Assembly: GCA_026391595.1 (NCBI GenBank)
Contig: JAPLDY010000204.1
Span: 1 to 49,636, forward strand
Direction: 5' to 3'
From: Bacteroidia bacterium
GTDB lineage: Bacteria > Bacteroidota > Bacteroidia > Bacteroidales > VadinHA17
DNA: 49,636 nucleotides
This document shows positions 34,492 through 42,438 of the stretch, in pieces (positions within the stretch are counted from its first letter, which is position 1; each line of letters begins with the position of its first letter). The position numbers and the translations under genes are program-made. The notes under the pieces were generated by a model that saw only the letters and a list, made by a program, of their open reading frames with translations, made no database searches and was not told the origin of the DNA.

Positions 34492-35997
34492 TCAATCCAG
34501 ATCGAACCATTTCACATATTCCGAACTCTCATTTTCAGGAAAACTCTTGTAATAAAACTCGTTTGAGTGATTATTGTAATTGTAATCCTTTGACCATTCT
34601 GATGCATTTTCTATTGTAGATCTTATTGAGCTGATTATGTATTTCAGATCATCATCAGACATGGTGGGGTGCAGTGAGATCCTTACCCATCCTGGTTTTA
34701 GTGAAAGATCGCCGGCTTCAATCCTGTCGGTGATCTCCTTCGATTGCTTAAGGTCTACCTTGAGCAGGTAATGGCCATAGGTCCCAGCGCATGAACAACC
34801 ACCCCTCACCTGGATGCCAAATCTGTCATTAAGTAGTTTTGTAATCAGGTTGTGGTGTATATTGTCGACATAGAAAGAGAATACTCCGAGACGTTCAGTT
34901 ATATTCTCTGCGAGTATATGAAGTCCTTTTATCCTGCCTAATCCATTAAAGGCAATTTCGATGAGCTCCCGTTCCCTTGGGAGAATATTATCAGTTCCCA
35001 TTTGCTCCTTTAACCTGATGGCAAGGGCTGCTTTTATACCCTGCAGGAATCCGGGTGTGCCCCCATCTTCTTTAACTTCAATATCACTGATGTAGCTGTA
35101 TCCGCCCCACCTGTTTGTCCATTTTACGGTCCCCCCACCAGGAGTATCGGGAGTCACATTTTTATATAACTCTTTGTTAAAAATCAATACTCCGGCACTT
35201 CCGGGTCCTCCAAGGAATTTATGGGGAGAAAAGAATATCGCATCAAGCTGTTGCATTCTATTCTCAGGATGCATATTTATGCTGACATAAGGAGCTGAAG
35301 CTGCAAAATCAACAAAACAATAGCCATTATGCTCATGCATTATTTGCGCCAGTTCATAATAAGGCGGAATATAGCCAGTTACATTTGAACATGCAGAGAA
35401 TGAGCCGATTAACATAGAGCGATCATGGAATTTTATTATTTCTTTTCTTAAGGTATCCGGGTTGACCCTCATATCGCTGTCAGGCTCAAGGACCACAACA
35501 TCAGCAATTGTTTCAAGCCAGGAGGTTTGATTTGAATGGTGTTCAATGTGGGTAAGAAAAACAACCGGTCTGACGTTGTCTGATTCATTTTTGCAATTGT
35601 ACAGCTGCCCTCTGGCTACAGGACAATAATTTTTAGCCTGTTCAGGTATCTTAAGACCAAGCAATCTCTGAAGTTTTGCGACTGCTGACGTCATCCCTGC
35701 TCCGGTAAACAGAAGTAAATCATTTTCGTCAGCATTTACATGTTGCTTAATGATTCTCTGTGCCTGCCTGTAAGCATTTGTCATCGCTATGCCCGTAGCG
35801 GATGATTCTGAATGGGTGTTGCCTACCATCGGTCCTATATCACAAGAGATCCTTTTTTCGATGGGTTTATATAATCTTCCGCTTGCTATCCAGTCAGCAT
35901 ATACCAGCTTCTTTAACCCAGAGGGGGTCTCTATCTCTGAATCGAGGCCAATTATATTTTTACGGAACGTACCGAAATATGTTTCAAGATCTTGCAT
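34492..35997 (-). CDS. Class V aminotransferase, SufS/cysteine-desulfurase-like
   Basis: This 501-aa PLP enzyme of fold type I carries the PLP lysine Lys260 in SPHKFLGGPGS. Upstream family positions are HIEHHSNQTSW, FSACSNVTG and YCFVDFAASAPY. A Cys-rich loop, RGGCSCAGTYG (Cys401 and Cys403), sits where SufS/Csd desulfurases carry their persulfide Cys, although the CSC arrangement is atypical. It is about 90 residues longer than SufS, with extra residues at the C-terminus (EYVKWFDLD). It may release sulfur from cysteine or a related substrate, but another class-V reaction is possible. It is divergent from the molybdoenzyme operon (130-base gap), a position compatible with sulfur metabolism. 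Confidence 0.85.
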   Translation of the reverse strand: MQDLETYFGTFRKNIIGLDSEIETPSGLKKLVYADWIASGRLYKPIEKRISCDIGPMVGNTHSESSATGIAMTNAYRQAQRIIKQHVNADENDLLLFTGAGMTSAVAKLQRLLGLKIPEQAKNYCPVARGQLYNCKNESDNVRPVVFLTHIEHHSNQTSWLETIADVVVLEPDSDMRVNPDTLRKEIIKFHDRSMLIGSFSACSNVTGYIPPYYELAQIMHEHNGYCFVDFAASAPYVSINMHPENRMQQLDAIFFSPHKFLGGPGSAGVLIFNKELYKNVTPDTPGGGTVKWTNRWGGYSYISDIEVKEDGGTPGFLQGIKAALAIRLKEQMGTDNILPRERELIEIAFNGLGRIKGLHILAENITERLGVFSFYVDNIHHNLITKLLNDRFGIQVRGGCSCAGTYGHYLLKVDLKQSKEITDRIEAGDLSLKPGWVRISLHPTMSDDDLKYIISSIRSTIENASEWSKDYNYNNHSNEFYYKSFPENESSEYVKWFDLD

Positions 35998-36127: not shown

Positions 36128-38371
36128 ATGGCTAACAGGCGGGAATTCATCAAGATTTCATTGTACGGTGCCGGATTTCTGGCTGCAGGCACCGGTACCT
36201 ACAAAGTGATAAAGGCTTTGTCGAAAAGGGAAAAAGAAGAAATCACAAAACTTGCGATCGATCTGAAACGTACGCCTACCTACTGTGAGGTATGTTTCTG
36301 GAAATGTGCCGGATGGGTTTACAAAACTCCGGAAGGCAAGATCTGGAAGATAACCGGTAATGACGAGGATCAACATTGCAATGGCCGGTTCTGCCCGCGA
36401 GGCACAGGCGGTATAGGAATGTACTATGATGAGGATCGCCTTAAAACTCCACTTATCAGGACTGAGGAGCGTGGGAAGCAGGTATTCCGGGAGGCAACCT
36501 GGGATGAAGCCCTTGATCATATTGCATCGAAAATCAAAGAGATTTCTTCAAAATACGGACCTGAGAGCCTCGCCCTCTTCACACACGGATCCGGCTCTGC
36601 TTATTTTACCTCACTCTTCAAGGCTATAGGGACAGACAGTATAGCTGAACCTTCCTATGCCCAGTGCCGCGGTCCAAGAGATGAAGCCTTCTTTGCAACA
36701 TTTGGCGAAGAAGCATATTCACCTGAGATTACGGATATAAGGGATACAAAATGCCTTGTCCTGATTGGCTCGCATATAGGTGAAAACATGCATAATGGCC
36801 AGGTACAGGAGATGTCGGATGCCATTGATAAGGGTACCACCATCATAACTGTCGATCCGCGGTTCTCGACTGCGGCCGGCAAATCAAAATACTGGTTGCC
36901 GATAAAGCCTGCAACCGATATGGCGCTGCTTCTTGCCTGGATACATGAAATAATTTACAATGAGTACTTCGATAAAAAATATGTAGAAAAATATTGTACA
37001 GGATTCGATCAGCTGAAGGCTCATGTGAAAGACTTTACTCCGGAATGGGCATATGGGATCACAACTATTAAACCTGACCTGATCAGGAAAACAGCAAAGG
37101 AGATGGCTGATGCTTCACCAGCCGTATTAGTTCATCCCGGACGTCATGTCACCTGGTACGGGGATGATACTCAGCGTGTCAGGGCAATAGCCATATTAAA
37201 TGCTCTTTTGGGATCATGGGGCAGGAGAGGCGGCTTCTACCGTCCGGCAAGATTTACTCCTGCATCACCTGAAATTCCTGCATACAAAGTACCGTCAAAA
37301 AGCTGGACGGATCTTTTCCCGGGAAAATTCCCTGTTGCGACATCACCAATAAGCAATGCTCTTATAGATGCTTCAATTCCTGAAAACAATCCAGGTTTTC
37401 CTATAAAGGGATGGTTCATCAACGGGACAAACCTGATTCAGACAATTCCCGACCAGGGTAAGACTCTTAAAGCGATTCAGAACCTTGATCTTTTAGTAGC
37501 GGTCGATACAATGCCAATGGAGATCACAGGTTGGGCTGATGTTATTCTGCCTGAATGCACATATCTGGAACGTTATGATGCAATGAGAGCAAGTCCCCAC
37601 AGGAAACCGGCACTAGCTCTCAGGATGCCTGCTGCTGAAACAGCATACAATACTAAACCTGACTATTGGATTGCCAGGGAGCTGGCTGTAAAGCTTGGAC
37701 TAGGAAGCTATTTTCCTTTCGAGAAGCAGGAAGAGCTCCTCGACTGGCAACTTAAGAAAATAGGTTCATCGCTCGAGGAGATGCAGAGAGTTGGCGTCAA
37801 AAACTTCGATCGGGAATACGATGATCTTTATATTGCAGATGATGAAGATGTTACAATTTTTACTGATTCCGGCAAGATCGAATTGTACTCAGCTTATTTT
37901 AAGCAGAACGGATTTGATCCGCTCCCAAAATATATACCTCACGAGGAACCATCTGAAGGATATTACAGGCTTATTTATGGCCGTGCTCCTATGCATACTT
38001 TCAGCCGTACCTCAAACAATCCAAACCTTACCGATCTGATGGACGAAAATACAGTATGGATAAACCCAAAGGTTGCGAAAGAGTGGGGGATTACCAATAA
38101 CCAGCTTATCTGGCTCAAGAACCAGGATGAAGTGATTTCGCAATTTCCGATCAAGGCAAGGGTGACGGAAAGAATCAGATGGGACTCGGTTTACATGGTT
38201 CATGGATTTGGTCATGCACAGAAACAGATGAAGCGTTGTTTCGGAAAAGGAGCAAGTGACACACAGCTGATTACCAAAGTTCTTGAAGATCCGATAATGG
38301 GAGGGACGGGCATGAGAGGAAATTTTGTGACATTCATTCTTGAAAAGACAGAAACGGAGGTTGCATCATGA
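36128..38371 (+). CDS. PsrA/PhsA-like molybdopterin oxidoreductase, Tat-exported catalytic subunit
   Basis: ATG 36128 gives a 747-aa protein starting MANRREFIK, a twin-arginine signal; the in-frame TTG at 36083 would put unlikely residues before it. The N-terminal [4Fe-4S] motif is Cys53-x2-Cys56-x3-Cys60...Cys89 (YCEVCFWKC; FCPRG). Cys180 in YAQCRGPRDEAF is the likely Mo ligand. The molybdopterin-dinucleotide domains follow (VDPRFSTAAGKSKYWLPIKP; HPGRHVTWYGDD; C-terminal LIYGRAPMHTFSRTSNNP). With the PsrB- and PsrC-like partners this is a periplasmic polysulfide/thiosulfate/tetrathionate-type reductase or oxidase. The exact substrate cannot be read from the sequence, although the sulfur genes downstream favour a sulfur compound. 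Confidence 0.92.
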   Translation: MANRREFIKISLYGAGFLAAGTGTYKVIKALSKREKEEITKLAIDLKRTPTYCEVCFWKCAGWVYKTPEGKIWKITGNDEDQHCNGRFCPRGTGGIGMYYDEDRLKTPLIRTEERGKQVFREATWDEALDHIASKIKEISSKYGPESLALFTHGSGSAYFTSLFKAIGTDSIAEPSYAQCRGPRDEAFFATFGEEAYSPEITDIRDTKCLVLIGSHIGENMHNGQVQEMSDAIDKGTTIITVDPRFSTAAGKSKYWLPIKPATDMALLLAWIHEIIYNEYFDKKYVEKYCTGFDQLKAHVKDFTPEWAYGITTIKPDLIRKTAKEMADASPAVLVHPGRHVTWYGDDTQRVRAIAILNALLGSWGRRGGFYRPARFTPASPEIPAYKVPSKSWTDLFPGKFPVATSPISNALIDASIPENNPGFPIKGWFINGTNLIQTIPDQGKTLKAIQNLDLLVAVDTMPMEITGWADVILPECTYLERYDAMRASPHRKPALALRMPAAETAYNTKPDYWIARELAVKLGLGSYFPFEKQEELLDWQLKKIGSSLEEMQRVGVKNFDREYDDLYIADDEDVTIFTDSGKIELYSAYFKQNGFDPLPKYIPHEEPSEGYYRLIYGRAPMHTFSRTSNNPNLTDLMDENTVWINPKVAKEWGITNNQLIWLKNQDEVISQFPIKARVTERIRWDSVYMVHGFGHAQKQMKRCFGKGASDTQLITKVLEDPIMGGTGMRGNFVTFILEKTETEVAS

Positions 38372-38901
38372 GGTATGCTATGGCAGTTGATACCAGGAAA
38401 TGTGTGGGATGCAGCGATTGTGTTGTGGCCTGTCAGACTGAAAATAATGTACCAATTGGTTATTGCCGCGACTGGGTAGTAGAGGTCACTGATGGGACAT
38501 ACCCGCAGCTTGAAATGGAGATCAGGTCGGAACGCTGTAACCATTGTGCAAATGCTCCATGTGTCCGCTGCTGCCCTACGGGTGCCAGCCACATTGTGGA
38601 AGGAGGCATAGTGCTGGTCGATTCCACCCAGTGTATAGGATGCGGAGCCTGCATCGCATCGTGCCCTTATGATGCCAGGTTCCCTCATCCAAAAGGATAT
38701 GTAGATAAATGCACCTTCTGCGAACACCGGATCAAAAACGGAATGTCGCCTTCATGTGTGGAGGTTTGCCCTACAAAATGCCTCTATTTCGGTGATCTTG
38801 ATGATCCCAGCAGCAATGCGTCTGTTGTTCTGAAAAAGAGGAAATATAAAACACTTATCCCGGAAGCCGGGACAGACCCTCAATTATATTTCTTAATTTA
38901 A
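38368..38901 (+). CDS. PsrB-like four-cluster ferredoxin subunit
   Basis: This 177-aa electron-transfer subunit has four Cys clusters arranged as in PsrB/DmsB/NrfC: CVGCSDCVVACQTEN, CNHCANAPCVRCCPTGA, CIGCGACIASCPYDA and CTFCEHRIKNG...CVEVCPTKC. Together these bind four [4Fe-4S] centres. It passes electrons between the membrane anchor and the molybdopterin subunit. There is no signal peptide, as expected for a subunit co-exported with its Tat partner. The ATG overlaps the stop codon of the catalytic subunit by 4 bases (ATGA), so translation is coupled. Confidence 0.95.
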   Translation: MRYAMAVDTRKCVGCSDCVVACQTENNVPIGYCRDWVVEVTDGTYPQLEMEIRSERCNHCANAPCVRCCPTGASHIVEGGIVLVDSTQCIGCGACIASCPYDARFPHPKGYVDKCTFCEHRIKNGMSPSCVEVCPTKCLYFGDLDDPSSNASVVLKKRKYKTLIPEAGTDPQLYFLI

Positions 38902-38922
38902 GATATTAATATTCAGATAAAT

Positions 38923-39864
38923 ATGAAAGAAGAGATCATAGTAAGCGGTAGGATGAACCCCATGGTTGATCCTAACCTGCAGATATGGCACTGGCAAATA
39001 CCACTATATCTTTTTCTGGGAGGGATGGCTGCCGGTATCCTTTGCATAGCTGCTGTTTATTTCATCAGAGGAAGGGAAAATGATTACCGGACTGCTGTCC
39101 GCCTTACACCGTTCCTGGCACCTGTACTTCTGGTGCTGGGCTTGCTAGCTCTCTTCTTCGACCTGAGACACAAGCTCTACTTCTGGCAGCTCTATACCAA
39201 TATCAGGCTGCAGTCGCCAATGTCATGGGGCGCCTGGACACTCATGGTTATCACACCTGTTTCATTTATCTGGTGCGCACTTCACATGCAGGACCTCTTT
39301 CCGAATTGGGACTGGAAATACAAATGGCTTAAGGCTCTTGAAAGTTTCTTCAATAAGTACAAGAAAACACTGGCATGGATTATGCTTATTTATGGAATCA
39401 TCCTTGGCATTTATACCGGAATATTATTATCAGCGTTTAATGCCAGACCTCTCTGGAACACGTCCATCCTTGGTCCGCTGTTCCTTGCATCAGGTATTTC
39501 CGCGGGAGCAGCTGCTACACTTTTATTGTCGAAGAATATTGAGGAGCGGAGGCAATTTGCCCGTATAGACTTGATAATGATAGGCATAGAACTATTTCTG
39601 ATAGTTCATATGTTCATGGGATTTCTTGCAAGCACACAGGTTCAGATTGACGCAGTCAGGATGTTCCTGGGTGGACAATATACCGCTTCATTCTGGGTAT
39701 TCGTAATCTTTTTAGGATTACTGATTCCGGCGTTACTGGAGATTATGGAACTGAAGAAATATCATATTCCCGCTATCATCCCTGCTGTGATGGTATTATT
39801 TGGCAGTTTGATGCTGCGGTTCATTATAGTATATGCCGGGCAGATGAGCAGGTGGCTTTATTAA
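38923..39864 (+). CDS. NrfD/PsrC-like quinone-interacting membrane anchor
   Basis: This 313-aa integral membrane protein has about eight hydrophobic helices. The N-terminal WHWQIPLYLFLGGMAAGILC and the LFFDLRHKLYFW motif are those of NrfD/PsrC proteins that exchange electrons with menaquinone. It completes the three-subunit enzyme and begins 21 bases after the ferredoxin gene. The direction of electron flow (quinol oxidation with sulfur reduction, or the opposite) is not shown by the sequence. Confidence 0.93.
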   Translation: MKEEIIVSGRMNPMVDPNLQIWHWQIPLYLFLGGMAAGILCIAAVYFIRGRENDYRTAVRLTPFLAPVLLVLGLLALFFDLRHKLYFWQLYTNIRLQSPMSWGAWTLMVITPVSFIWCALHMQDLFPNWDWKYKWLKALESFFNKYKKTLAWIMLIYGIILGIYTGILLSAFNARPLWNTSILGPLFLASGISAGAAATLLLSKNIEERRQFARIDLIMIGIELFLIVHMFMGFLASTQVQIDAVRMFLGGQYTASFWVFVIFLGLLIPALLEIMELKKYHIPAIIPAVMVLFGSLMLRFIIVYAGQMSRWLY

Positions 39865-39865
39865 A

Positions 39866-39937
39866 GGCGACAGGCGACGGGCATAAGGCATCAGGCAGGA
39901 TCTCCTGACGCCCGATGCCTGAAGCCTGATACCTCGT
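39866..39937. repeat. Imperfect inverted repeat of GGCATCAGGC type
   Basis: The 104-base gap after the anchor gene holds repeated AGGCGAC and GGCATCAGGC-type words; GGCATCAGGC (39887-39896) pairs with GCCTGATACC (39924-39933) at 9 of 10 positions. There is no T-run, so read-through into the YeeE/YedE genes is plausible. Confidence 0.5.
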
Positions 39938-39968
39938 AAAACGGAAACAGAATCTAAAATATAAATAT

Positions 39969-40502
39969 ATGACTGAAACAAAAGAAGTTAAGAAGACTAA
40001 GTACCTGAATCCTTATCTGGGTGGGGTTTTACTTGGTCTGGTCCTGCTCTCTGCAAATTTCATTGCAGGCCGTGGCCTGGGAGCGAGCGGAGCCATTAAG
40101 AGTACAATTGTCGCAACCATGACGACTGTTGCCCCTGTAGCTTCGGAAAAATCAGGATTCATTAAGGAATTCCGCGAGTCGCATGGAGGAAAGCCCATGA
40201 AGACATGGCTTGTCTTTGAAATGCTTGGTGTCCTGGTAGGAGGTTTTATTTCGGGAGCACTTGCAGGACGCCTTAAATTCAAGGTGGAACATTCACCTAA
40301 AATTACATCGAGGAAAAGGCTGTTTCTGGCTCTTACAGGAGGGGCTCTTTTTGGTTTTGGATCTCAGCTAGGAAGAGGGTGCACAAGTGGTGCTGCCCTG
40401 AGTGGGATGGCTGTGCTCTCTCTCGGAGGGTTCATTACTATGATGGCGATCTTCGGTACCGCTTATGCGCTTGCTTATTTCTTCAGAAAGAATTGGATTT
40501 AA
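39969..40502 (+). CDS. YeeE/YedE family half-transporter (sulfur transport), first half
   Basis: This 177-aa membrane protein has about four hydrophobic helices (GGVLLGLVLLSANFIAGRG; FEMLGVLVGGFISGALAG; LFLALTGGALFGFGSQLGRGC; LSLGGFITMMAIFGTAYALAYFF). The GRGCTSGAALSG loop contains the conserved Cys of YeeE/YedE proteins, which in TsuA takes part in thiosulfate passage. Full-length TsuA is about twice as long; the second half is encoded by the next gene, so the two probably form one unit. Placed after the PsrABC-like genes, it most likely moves thiosulfate or another sulfur species across the inner membrane. Confidence 0.9.
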   Translation: MTETKEVKKTKYLNPYLGGVLLGLVLLSANFIAGRGLGASGAIKSTIVATMTTVAPVASEKSGFIKEFRESHGGKPMKTWLVFEMLGVLVGGFISGALAGRLKFKVEHSPKITSRKRLFLALTGGALFGFGSQLGRGCTSGAALSGMAVLSLGGFITMMAIFGTAYALAYFFRKNWI

Positions 40503-40540
40503 TAACGGAATGCACGACTGCAAAACAAAAAGATAAGAAA

Positions 40541-41131
40541 ATGGGACCACTAGTTATAAACGAAATAATATCAGAAAACACCAACCTCTTTTTAGCTTTT
40601 ATAATCGGGATTGGATTTGGATTTGTTCTGGAGAGCAGCGGATTCTCCTCCAGCAGAAAGCTGGCAGGTGTCTTTTACGGATACGACACTGTTGTTCTTA
40701 AGGTGTTCTTTACCGGAGCAATAACCTGCATGCTGGGATTACTATTCTTCAGTCTCTTTGGCTGGATTGACCTGAACCTGGTATATGTAAATCCCACATA
40801 TCTTACATCAGCAGTTGTAGGTGGAATAATAATGGGTGCCGGTTTTATCATCGGCGGCTTTTGTCCGGGGACAAGCTTCTGCGGAGCCGCTATAGGAAAA
40901 CTCGACGCGATGGTTTTTGTTGTCGGATTATTCCTTGGTGTTCTGATCTTCGGACTAGGATACAATCTTTGGGACGGACTCTATATGGCTAAGAACCTTG
41001 GTGCACCAAAGATTAGTGAATCGTTGGGGATGAGTGATGGAATATTCGCACTTATTCTTATCCTCATAGCTCTTGCCATGTTCACGGCAGGAGAATGGGC
41101 TGAGAAAAAATTTCCGCGGGAAGAATATTAA
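40541..41131 (+). CDS. YeeE/YedE family half-transporter (sulfur transport), second half
   Basis: ATG 40541 gives a 196-aa membrane protein. The frame is open upstream to 40379, but that part overlaps the previous gene and reads as non-membrane, arginine- and Cys-rich sequence, so it is not real. About five helices are visible. The conserved loop GGFCPGTSFCGAA carries two Cys residues comparable to those needed by TsuA. An LESSGFSSSRKLAGVFYG segment near the N-terminus is typical of the family. It follows its partner by 38 bases. It is likely to pair with it as a split thiosulfate/sulfur channel-transporter. Confidence 0.9.
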   Translation: MGPLVINEIISENTNLFLAFIIGIGFGFVLESSGFSSSRKLAGVFYGYDTVVLKVFFTGAITCMLGLLFFSLFGWIDLNLVYVNPTYLTSAVVGGIIMGAGFIIGGFCPGTSFCGAAIGKLDAMVFVVGLFLGVLIFGLGYNLWDGLYMAKNLGAPKISESLGMSDGIFALILILIALAMFTAGEWAEKKFPREEY

Positions 41132-41165
41132 GACAAAAGACACAAGACACAAAACCCAAGAAAAT

Positions 41166-41200
41166 CCCCTCCTGGGAGGGGTGGGGGTGGGTAATAACTA
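41166..41200. repeat. G/C-run palindrome CCCCTCC-TG-GGAGGGG
   Basis: A perfect 7-bp stem (41166-41172 with 41175-41181) is followed by TGGGGGTGGGTAATAACTA. The last 12 bases equal the end of the element at 23178-23265. It lies 20 bases before the rhodanese-like gene inside the sulfur operon. Confidence 0.65.
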
Positions 41201-41219
41201 GAAACAAATAACAAAAAAT

Positions 41220-41840
41220 ATGAAACCACGAATTTTACTTGCATTATTTATCATTCCGCTGGGACTGATAATTGCGGCTGTTCCACAGAATACTACCAAG
41301 CCCTATAAGCTTACTGCCGGCGAAATGCTGAGCGAGGCCAATACCAGGACACAGTTTGTCACCCCTGAGACGGTTGCGGACATGATCGTAAATAAAGATC
41401 CGCTTCTGAGGCTTATCGATGTAAGGAGTCAGGAAGAATTTGAAAAATTCAGCCTTTCTGGCGCGATAAATATTCCGCTTGCAGACATCCTGTCTGACCA
41501 GTATGTTGACATTCTCAATCAGGATGTTAAAATGAATATTTTCTACTCAAACGGAACTCTCAATGCCAACGAGGCCTGGATGATAACCCGTCAGCTTGGT
41601 TATTCAAACAATTACGTCCTTGAAGGCGGAATTAATTACTGGTTCGATGCAATACTAAACCCTCAGAAGCCTGCTTCCACCAGTTCCGACGAAGAGTTTG
41701 CTAAATACGACTTTCGCAGAAGTGCAGGTCAGGCGCTTGGAGGAGGAGCTGTGCAAGCTGAACAGAATAAGGCAAGTACAACTGCCAAACCGGTCATCAC
41801 AGCAGGCCCAAAAAAGAAGAAGGCATCAGGAGGGTGCTGA
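41220..41840 (+). CDS. Exported rhodanese-like protein, Ser at catalytic position and C-terminal Gly-Gly-Cys
   Basis: This 206-aa protein has an N-terminal signal sequence (hydrophobic 4-20). The rhodanese fold covers about residues 48-155: RLIDVRSQEEFEKFSLSGAINIPL and NYVLEGGINYWFDA. The active-site loop, normally YCxxGxRS, reads YSNGTLNA, so the sulfur-carrying Cys is Ser110. The last 50 residues are low-complexity, rich in Ala, Ser, Thr and Lys, and end KKKKASGGC. Cys206, the final residue, is the only cysteine in the whole protein. Standard sulfurtransferase activity is therefore unlikely. A sulfur-carrier or binding role of the flexible tail, next to the sulfur transporters, is inference. 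The stop codon is 10 bases before mobA. Confidence 0.87.
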   Translation: MKPRILLALFIIPLGLIIAAVPQNTTKPYKLTAGEMLSEANTRTQFVTPETVADMIVNKDPLLRLIDVRSQEEFEKFSLSGAINIPLADILSDQYVDILNQDVKMNIFYSNGTLNANEAWMITRQLGYSNNYVLEGGINYWFDAILNPQKPASTSSDEEFAKYDFRRSAGQALGGGAVQAEQNKASTTAKPVITAGPKKKKASGGC

Positions 41841-41850
41841 AAACCTTTAT

Positions 41851-42438
41851 ATGGTAACCAGGATCTCAGGAGTGATCCTTGCCGGTGGCGCCAGCAAGAG
41901 GTTTGGCGGAATTACAAAGGCAAATATTATTGTTGAAGGAAGTACTATTATATCAAGAATAGTATTCACAATCAACGACATATTTGATGAAAAGATCATT
42001 GTCACCAACAGGCCTGAAGAATTTCAGGAATTCGATCAATGTAAAAAAATAAAAGACCAGTATCTGAAATCTGGTCCTCTTGGCGGAATTCATGCTGCTC
42101 TGAAATCGACATCAGCAGACGCTTGTTTCGTTTTTGCCGGTGATATGCCTTTTCTTGATAAAAAAATCATTGAAGATCAGATCCGTGAATTTAGCAGCAA
42201 TGAATATGATGTTTTAATTCCAAGGACTGGAAAATTAATTGAGCCTCTGCATGCAATTTACAGGAAATCAATCCTTGAAGATCTTGAAAATTTTTTATCT
42301 GATGGTAAAAGCAGGGCAGTAAGGGATTTTCTTATGGAAGTAAATGTCGGCTATATTCAGATTCCGGAAGGAGCGACAAGCAGAAAAGCCTTTGCAAATA
42401 TAAATTCACCCTCCGATATCTCCAAATTCATTTATTGA
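41851..42438 (+). CDS. mobA: Molybdenum cofactor guanylyltransferase
   Basis: ATG 41851 gives a 195-aa protein; the frame is open upstream to 41698 but that overlaps the rhodanese-like gene. The nucleotidyltransferase motif LAGGASKRFGG binds GTP, GPLGGIHAAL and FAGDMPFLD (metal-binding Asp) follow, and NINSPSDI closes the fold as in MobA. It attaches GMP to Mo-molybdopterin to give the bis-MGD cofactor required by the PsrA-like subunit. As the last gene of the operon it ties cofactor supply to enzyme production. Confidence 0.9.
   Translation: MVTRISGVILAGGASKRFGGITKANIIVEGSTIISRIVFTINDIFDEKIIVTNRPEEFQEFDQCKKIKDQYLKSGPLGGIHAALKSTSADACFVFAGDMPFLDKKIIEDQIREFSSNEYDVLIPRTGKLIEPLHAIYRKSILEDLENFLSDGKSRAVRDFLMEVNVGYIQIPEGATSRKAFANINSPSDISKFIY

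Follow-up and report, generated by a model that had tools for sequence, protein, structure and literature searches.

A cysteine-tailed rhodanese-fold protein and a split YeeE-type transporter accompany two unrelated respiratory enzymes: a candidate periplasmic sulfur-carrier module

Why should the genes of a quinone-linked molybdenum enzyme be followed by those of a two-part sulfur transporter and of a rhodanese that lacks its catalytic cysteine? This arrangement occurs in a 49,636-nucleotide contig of a Bacteroidia bacterium (JAPLDY010000204.1, assembly GCA_026391595.1; the whole stretch is called the window below). A first-pass annotation had proposed seven same-strand genes there, and all seven open reading frames (ORFs) were confirmed on the plus strand between 36128 and 42438: psrA, psrB and psrC, the transporter genes Y1 and Y2, the rhodanese gene Rhd, and mobA. 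Family profile matches support the names it gave to the parts (PsrA/B/C, split YeeE/YedE, rhodanese, MobA). The answer that we favor, tentatively, is that Y1, Y2 and Rhd form a portable periplasmic sulfur carrier with a membrane channel, similar to SoxY with a YeeE-type importer, and serve two unrelated quinone-linked enzymes.

Loss of the catalytic cysteine and a conserved cysteine tail in Rhd

Rhd (41220–41840, +) is predicted to be a membrane-anchored protein of rhodanese fold. It scored 51 bits on the Pfam Rhodanese profile. Its AlphaFold2 model, with a predicted local distance difference test (pLDDT) score above 90 over the domain and of 44–66 over residues 171–206, retrieved rhodaneses with a probability of 1.00 in a Foldseek search of the PDB. 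The cysteine of the rhodanese catalytic loop is missing: at the catalytic position, assigned from alignment to 3gk5 and occupied by Tyr109 in the window protein, 92 of 100 Rhd have Tyr and one has Cys. The first-pass description of a Cys-less rhodanese with a GGC tail was right, as the sole Cys of the window Rhd is its last residue, Cys206, whose codon was read from the sequence at 41835–41837 (+) and which ends a Lys-rich tail.

This tail Cys is a family trait. Downstream of psrA we counted 112 ORFs that score on the Rhd profile. A GC, GGCS or GGCG ending is present in 101, and the remaining 11 comprise six exported double-domain rhodaneses, one ordinary rhodanese, one ORF cut by a contig end and three short ORFs (at loci L061, L146 and L154). 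G204, G205 and C206 are invariant in all 42 aligned Rhd, together with D67, R69, W120, G136 and G137; that is, the C-terminal Gly-Gly-Cys arm by which SoxY is recognized is present in 42/42. Four Rhd end in GGCG, which we take to resemble the GGCGG motif of SoxY, and more distant psr-linked Rhd end in EGC or DGC. In 82 of 99 Rhd no Cys other than that of the tail occurs within the last 200 residues, and the 15 residues before the tail contain on average 5.9 Lys/Arg and 0.24 Asp/Glu (99 Rhd).

At the other end of the protein, a positive N terminus precedes a hydrophobic helix. The mean net charge is 2.36 before the helix and 0.25 after it, with the value before exceeding that after in 84 of 100 Rhd and equaling it in 12. 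Membrane helices follow the positive-inside rule; since the N terminus is positive, the Rhd domain would lie in the periplasm.

Some loci carry more than one rhodanese. Tandem pairs of GC-tailed Rhd occur at L009, L010, L043, L044, L127, L133, L142, L147, L153, L156 and L157. Exported double-domain rhodaneses, several of them with catalytic loops of the CYTGQ type, lie near the module at L010 (190–1206), L044 (1962–3966), L055 (1593–2600), L127, L130 and L133. At L204 (6925–10363), in a genome that also has a psr locus (G470), a triple-rhodanese protein is followed by Y1, Y2 and an Rhd ending in FQC.

Recurrence of the module beside two unrelated enzymes

By sequence, the enzyme encoded next to Rhd in the window is closest to characterized Psr/Phs enzymes and has the 4Fe-4S and NrfD subunits of that group. 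PsrA (36128–38371, +; 747 amino acids) would be a catalytic subunit with bis-molybdopterin guanine dinucleotide, exported by the twin-arginine (Tat) route; its twin Arg, R4 R5, is invariant in 14 aligned proteins. It scored 137.5 bits on Pfam Molybdopterin, and its best NCBIfam model was PhsA, at 451 bits, below the equivalog cut-off of 694. The nearest solved relative, over the full length, is the catalytic subunit of Thermus PsrABC (2vpw, named thiosulfate reductase; E 1e-195), with 655 bits versus 204 for the next structure; the profile comparison gave 867 versus 269. The first-pass annotation would have abandoned its sulfur interpretation if PsrA fell firmly into a non-sulfur clade, and both profile and PDB-sequence scores place it with Psr/Phs. 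The gene psrB (38368–38901, +), which overlaps psrA by ATGA, encodes a 4Fe-4S electron-transfer subunit, and psrC (38923–39864, +) encodes an NrfD-type membrane quinone subunit (NrfD, 187 bits). In plasmid searches, the best match to PsrA was a PhsA at 30% identity, and Rhd gave two weak matches.

Y1 (39969–40502, +; 177 amino acids) and Y2 (40541–41131, +; 196 amino acids) scored 74 and 43.5 bits on Sulf_transp. Y1 aligns with profile positions 169–309, the C-terminal half, and Y2 with positions 9–157, the N-terminal half, so that, judged from these alignments, the two are complementary halves of the PmpAB / YeeE-YedE kind. PmpA and PmpB are halves of YeeE with one conserved Cys each, and YeeE-family proteins are described as importers (PMC11582611; here and below, statements on cited papers refer to the excerpts available). 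The single Cys of Y1, Cys138, is conserved in at least 97% of 98 proteins, and Cys108 of Y2 in at least 97% of 93 and in 33/33. In the draft genome, which is 95.5% complete, Y1 and Y2 are the only Sulf_transp proteins found and PsrA the sole PF00384 protein.

We searched three samples for the unit. Within the class (247 genomes), PsrA (E ≤ 1e-100) and Rhd (E ≤ 1e-10) were found in the same three genomes (the window's own, G141 and G172), encoded adjacently. Among 395 genomes of the phylum, searched at E ≤ 1e-100 for PsrA and with an Rhd profile at E ≤ 1e-25, 43 had PsrA, and the regions of 40 of these were examined. Finally, we kept the best 80 loci from one genome per species of 84,980 species; these include Marinifilum, Labilibaculum, Ancylomarina, Sunxiuqinia, Carboxylicivirga, Mariniphaga and Marinoscillum, as well as Marinimicrobia metagenome-assembled genomes (MAGs) and many Bacteroidales MAGs. 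To annotate the loci we used profiles derived from three of them, and for Rhd later a profile of 29 proteins. The resulting 120 loci include the window, L009 and L010; L092–L094 (same contigs as L040–L042) and the short loci L001–L008 and L011–L039 were left out. Of these, 107 belong to the closer PsrA clade and 13 to a low-score PsrA group, consisting of 12 loci that we label f75 and of L076, where PsrA is cut by the contig.

Y1, Y2 and Rhd were all present in 84/84 closer-clade loci with more than 4.7 kb downstream of psrA. The first-pass proposal would have fallen if the gene order were not conserved; the order recurs, and we rejected an accidental arrangement. Rhd is GC-tailed in 83 of the 84, with a short Rhd ORF at L061, and at L046 Y2 and Rhd are one ORF of 461 amino acids. 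Among the 23 of 107 loci with less downstream sequence, seven show Y1, Y2 and Rhd, and the other 16 include L043.

The module also accompanies an octaheme cytochrome. All 39 phylum genomes with Rhd have PsrA or this cytochrome: 25 have PsrA, and the other 14, G474 among them, lack PsrA, and there the octaheme cytochrome is encoded along with Y1, a cytochrome b and a Y2-Rhd protein that is mostly about 395 amino acids long and ends in GGC or GGCG. The association of Rhd with the union of both enzymes gave a Fisher p of 3.5e-30, for a union chosen post hoc and genomes that are not independent. Three loci that hold Rhd, L045, L061 and L063, belong to genomes in which this Rhd search missed it (G358, G508 and G601). 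At L197, the cytochrome scored 578 bits on TIGR04315 (cut-off 375) and matched the octaheme tetrathionate reductase 1sp3 at E 4e-122, while the cytochrome b resembled that of thiosulfate reductase (106 bits, cut-off 204).

TIGR04315 was found at 60 places in 55 of the 395 genomes, and we examined 51 of these, the nine left out all being f75. At 35 of the 51, Y1 and Y2-Rhd are present, the latter as a single fused ORF in 34 and split in L236; a cytochrome b gene is present in 33 of the 35. Compared with 1sp3, these family members differ in an operon that also encodes Y1, cytochrome b and a fused Y2-Rhd. In 33 the tail is GGC with at most one further residue, and in L258 and L269 it is GGLCS. 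The fusions keep a hydrophobic stretch at the place of the Rhd anchor, as seen by looking at the sequences, which is consistent with a carrier fixed beside the channel. The family-wide tail, the fusion and the second partner enzyme go beyond what the first-pass annotation had observed.

The octaheme family is described as reducing tetrathionate, nitrite and hydroxylamine (PMC11237559), and its role, with tetrathionate or nitrite, is considered uncertain (PMC11237559, PMC7509429); otr is found with cytochrome b561 (PMC7509429). In the symbionts of lucinids, otr is followed by a divergent soxY (PMC11237559), which is an independent example of a carrier encoded next to an octaheme enzyme.

Substrate, direction and competing explanations

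How could these parts work together? We suggest that PsrABC is a periplasmic, quinone-linked molybdenum enzyme of the Psr/Phs kind, that Y1 and Y2 make up a PmpAB-type split YeeE channel, and that Rhd would carry sulfur while anchored on the periplasmic side of the inner membrane. Cys206, on its flexible positive arm, would hold a sulfane sulfur or an S-thiosulfonate and swing between the active site of the enzyme and the channel, passing sulfur; the rhodanese domain may have been kept for binding or docking rather than for catalysis. The module would have become attached to a second, unrelated enzyme as well, the octaheme tetrathionate-reductase-family cytochrome, usually with cytochrome b. 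We favor the reductive direction, in which sulfur of polysulfide, thiosulfate or tetrathionate would be presented to the enzyme and then reduced. The proposal of Rhd as a carrier follows the logic of SoxYZ, whose sulfur is proposed to enter the cell via SoxT1A, a YeeE-type protein (PMC11582611).

A bolder version, which we regard as doubtful, is that convergence has made a SoxY-like arm out of an inactive rhodanese, so that Rhd would be a periplasmic sulfur carrier of a new class, and that Y1-Y2-Rhd is a portable adaptor by which both the molybdenum enzyme PsrABC and the octaheme cytochrome would act on sulfur bound to protein instead of free polysulfide or tetrathionate. If true, this would make a carrier-bound sulfur species the natural substrate of the octaheme cytochromes. 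A single-cysteine carrier common to both enzymes would offer one mutable residue with which to probe their real substrates, and would explain how reactive sulfur stays bound between enzyme and membrane. As the psr-linked module occurs in the cultured genera Marinifilum, Labilibaculum, Ancylomarina, Carboxylicivirga and Sunxiuqinia, such testing is feasible.

Several observations weigh against the carrier proposal. Within the protein itself, five of 100 Rhd have Cys as the residue after the catalytic position, where 73 have Ser. The structure model of Y2 is poor (pLDDT 67.5), and a fold search with it gave no PDB match; a sequence search of the PDB with Y2 gave no useful match. None of the ten window genes scanned matched TusA or DsrE, so the unit lacks the makeup of the YTD disproportionation cluster, in which yedE is accompanied by tusA, dsrE and hypothetical genes; a single TusA-family match was found in the genome, next to a selD-like gene.

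The module is also absent from some loci of both enzymes. The f75 PsrA family is 43–46% identical; of 14 f75 genomes with PsrA we examined 12 (all but G280 and G401), and psrABC was present but Y1, Y2 and Rhd were found in none of the 12 loci, eight of which have more than 4.7 kb downstream. No f75 genome among the 395 had Rhd at E ≤ 1e-25. The green sulfur bacterial relative has been named PSRLC2 (PMC6338057), and we infer that f75 is this group. Similarly, the module is absent at 16 of the 51 octaheme loci: ten with short forms of about 460 amino acids (one of which, L253, ends less than 1 kb downstream of the gene), five f75 loci with cytochrome b, and L237. Both enzymes can therefore work without the module. 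At L043 (7–1314), psrC is directly followed by two GGC-tailed Rhd, with no Y1-Y2 between them. Thus, the channel is not always there, and this locus suggests that the link between enzyme and Rhd is more basic than that with the channel.

Further difficulty comes from the organisms. Psr, Phs and Sre enzymes are indistinguishable by sequence, so that substrate cannot be inferred from it (PMC8359478). In Melioribacter roseus, the related psrABC is MROS_1774-1776, and psrA is induced by arsenate (PMC5492636); growth was unstimulated by S0, thiosulfate or sulfite (PMC3534657). The first-pass claim that the unit respires an inorganic sulfur compound is thus not established. Caldithrix abyssi has psrABC near two sulfurtransferase genes, and with acetate or H2 it respired neither S0 nor thiosulfate (PMC5317091). 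Labilibaculum euxinus and Ancylomarina euxinus are classed as fermenters; the module is present in other species of both genera (L122, L124).

Among the competing explanations, the one that survives best, though we consider it unlikely, is that the unit runs oxidatively. PsrABC would oxidize sulfide or polysulfide to bound sulfane sulfur and pass electrons to the quinone pool, with Rhd taking the sulfur and Y1-Y2 importing it. Reverse operation is possible for Psr-like enzymes (PMC8359478) and import is what YeeE-family proteins are described as doing (PMC11582611), while the genes that lie near psrABC for cytochrome b-multiheme or multiheme proteins at 14 of the 107 loci, and for Rieske proteins at 10, could encode acceptors of quinol electrons. 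However, in the family of the second partner the described activity is reduction, of tetrathionate, nitrite and hydroxylamine (PMC11237559), which is hard to square with sulfide oxidation.

Less likely still is that a non-sulfur acceptor such as arsenate is the main substrate and that the module deals with sulfide or thiol by-products or with thio-arsenic species. The strong arsenate induction of the M. roseus gene (psr/phsA), proposed to encode a respiratory arsenate reductase (PMC5492636), and the lack of growth stimulation by sulfur compounds (PMC3534657) speak for it, as does a MerR-family regulator gene near the module at 22 of 107 loci. PsrA itself scored 139.7 bits on the ArrA model, against a cut-off of 1600 and against 451 bits for PhsA, and 119 bits with the ArrA structure against 655 for Thermus PsrA; on such scores we rejected PsrA as an Arr or formate enzyme. 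Sulfur would also account better for the conserved transport and rhodanese parts, and a cytochrome of the tetrathionate reductase family comes with the same module.

We consider it improbable that the tail Cys is structural, as a disulfide tether or a site for a metal or lipid, with Rhd a scaffold or sensor and not a carrier. A rhodanese domain without its catalytic Cys, the physical closeness seen in the Y2-Rhd fusion, and duplicated Rhd copies that could be scaffolds would all accord with such a role, but the Gly-Gly before the Cys and the disordered Lys-rich linker suit a mobile thiol, and in both Y1 and Y2 a single Cys is conserved across the family, the one expected for transport. That the unit handles selenium is very improbable: a TusA-DsrE-like protein is encoded beside a selD-like gene in the same genome (L279, 49–1710; DsrE match sub-threshold, selD named by look) and the YedE selenium-transporter model gave weak matches, but its scores (29 bits for Y1, 25 for Y2) are far below the cut-off of 350 and the partner enzymes are Psr/Phs-like and tetrathionate-reductase-like.

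Related systems and neighboring genes

The first-pass annotation was not aware of a description of this exact combination. The order psr-transporter-rhodanese is already in print: for Candidatus Thermonerobacter thiotrophicus, PMC6338057 lists a MerR gene, psrABC, two sulfur-transport (Sulf_transp) genes and a rhodanese gene in the same order, and reports PsrABC to be 60–78% identical to those of M. roseus and I. album. The excerpts of that paper do not say how widespread the unit is and mention neither the C-terminal Cys nor the absent catalytic one; the Y2-Rhd fusion and the octaheme partner do not appear in them either. Within the literature searched, read as excerpts, what appears to be new is the fusion of Y2 with Rhd, the sharing of one module by two unrelated enzymes, and a tail with a single Cys across the family. 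Marinimicrobia psrABC are discussed in PMC5688066.

The closest functional parallel would be SoxYZ with SoxT/YeeE (PMC11582611, PMC11237559), where, as proposed for Rhd, sulfur is bound by the Cys of a mobile arm on a carrier in the periplasm, and the carrier is paired with a YeeE-family importer. Unlike SoxY, Rhd has a predicted rhodanese fold and membrane anchor, its Cys is at or next to the very end, and its partners are respiratory enzymes of reductase families; SoxY and SoxZ gave no match among the window genes scanned, so that Rhd does not share SoxY family or fold. PmpA and PmpB (PMC11582611) resemble Y1 and Y2 in being C- and N-terminal halves with one family-wide Cys each; Y1 and Y2 are longer (177 and 196 versus about 130 amino acids) and go together with Rhd and a respiratory enzyme. 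Desulfurivibrio dismutans (PMC12142623) has, as here, a Psr operon with an exported rhodanese, and elsewhere in its genome it encodes periplasmic sulfurtransferases, a porin and YeeE/YedE together. Its rhodanese is a sulfurtransferase with three rhodanese domains, and the excerpts do not mention a GGC-arm carrier.

Downstream of Rhd in the window, mobA (41851–42438, +; NTP_transf_3, 115 bits) encodes a member of the molybdenum-cofactor guanylyltransferase family. The statement that the unit makes its own cofactor is too strong, as MobA is the sole cofactor enzyme encoded in it. A MobA-like gene is near the module at 45 of the 107 loci, and moaA-like and moeA-like genes, both named by look, at nine and eight. 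We rejected a missing TorD chaperone, since a PF02613 protein is encoded elsewhere in the genome.

A gene for an outer-membrane protein of the FadL/Toluene_X family, named from a search with one member, occurs at 15 of the 107 loci (L047, L048, L051, L052, L055, L059, L097, L100, L102, L104, L109, L112, L114, L117 and L122), at 13 of them directly after Rhd. This protein could pass hydrophobic sulfur, an idea for which our literature search gave no support.

The 104-nucleotide gap between psrC and Y1, to which the first-pass annotation had drawn attention, holds a strong hairpin (z −4.3), formed by a dispersed palindromic repeat (39866–39945, +) with nine matches in the genome, itself included. 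It is not a conserved feature of the operon: the gap is 50 nucleotides or less at 70 of 98 loci, and we rejected the hairpin as a conserved regulator. A short GC-rich inverted repeat lies between Y2 and Rhd (41166–41181), a single site in the window. Divergent from psrA is a gene for a 501-amino-acid protein of the class-V aminotransferase/SufS-like family (34492–35997, −). This family occurs at six of the 107 loci, the window included, and a similar-looking protein is encoded near the octaheme locus L193 (4585–6060, −).

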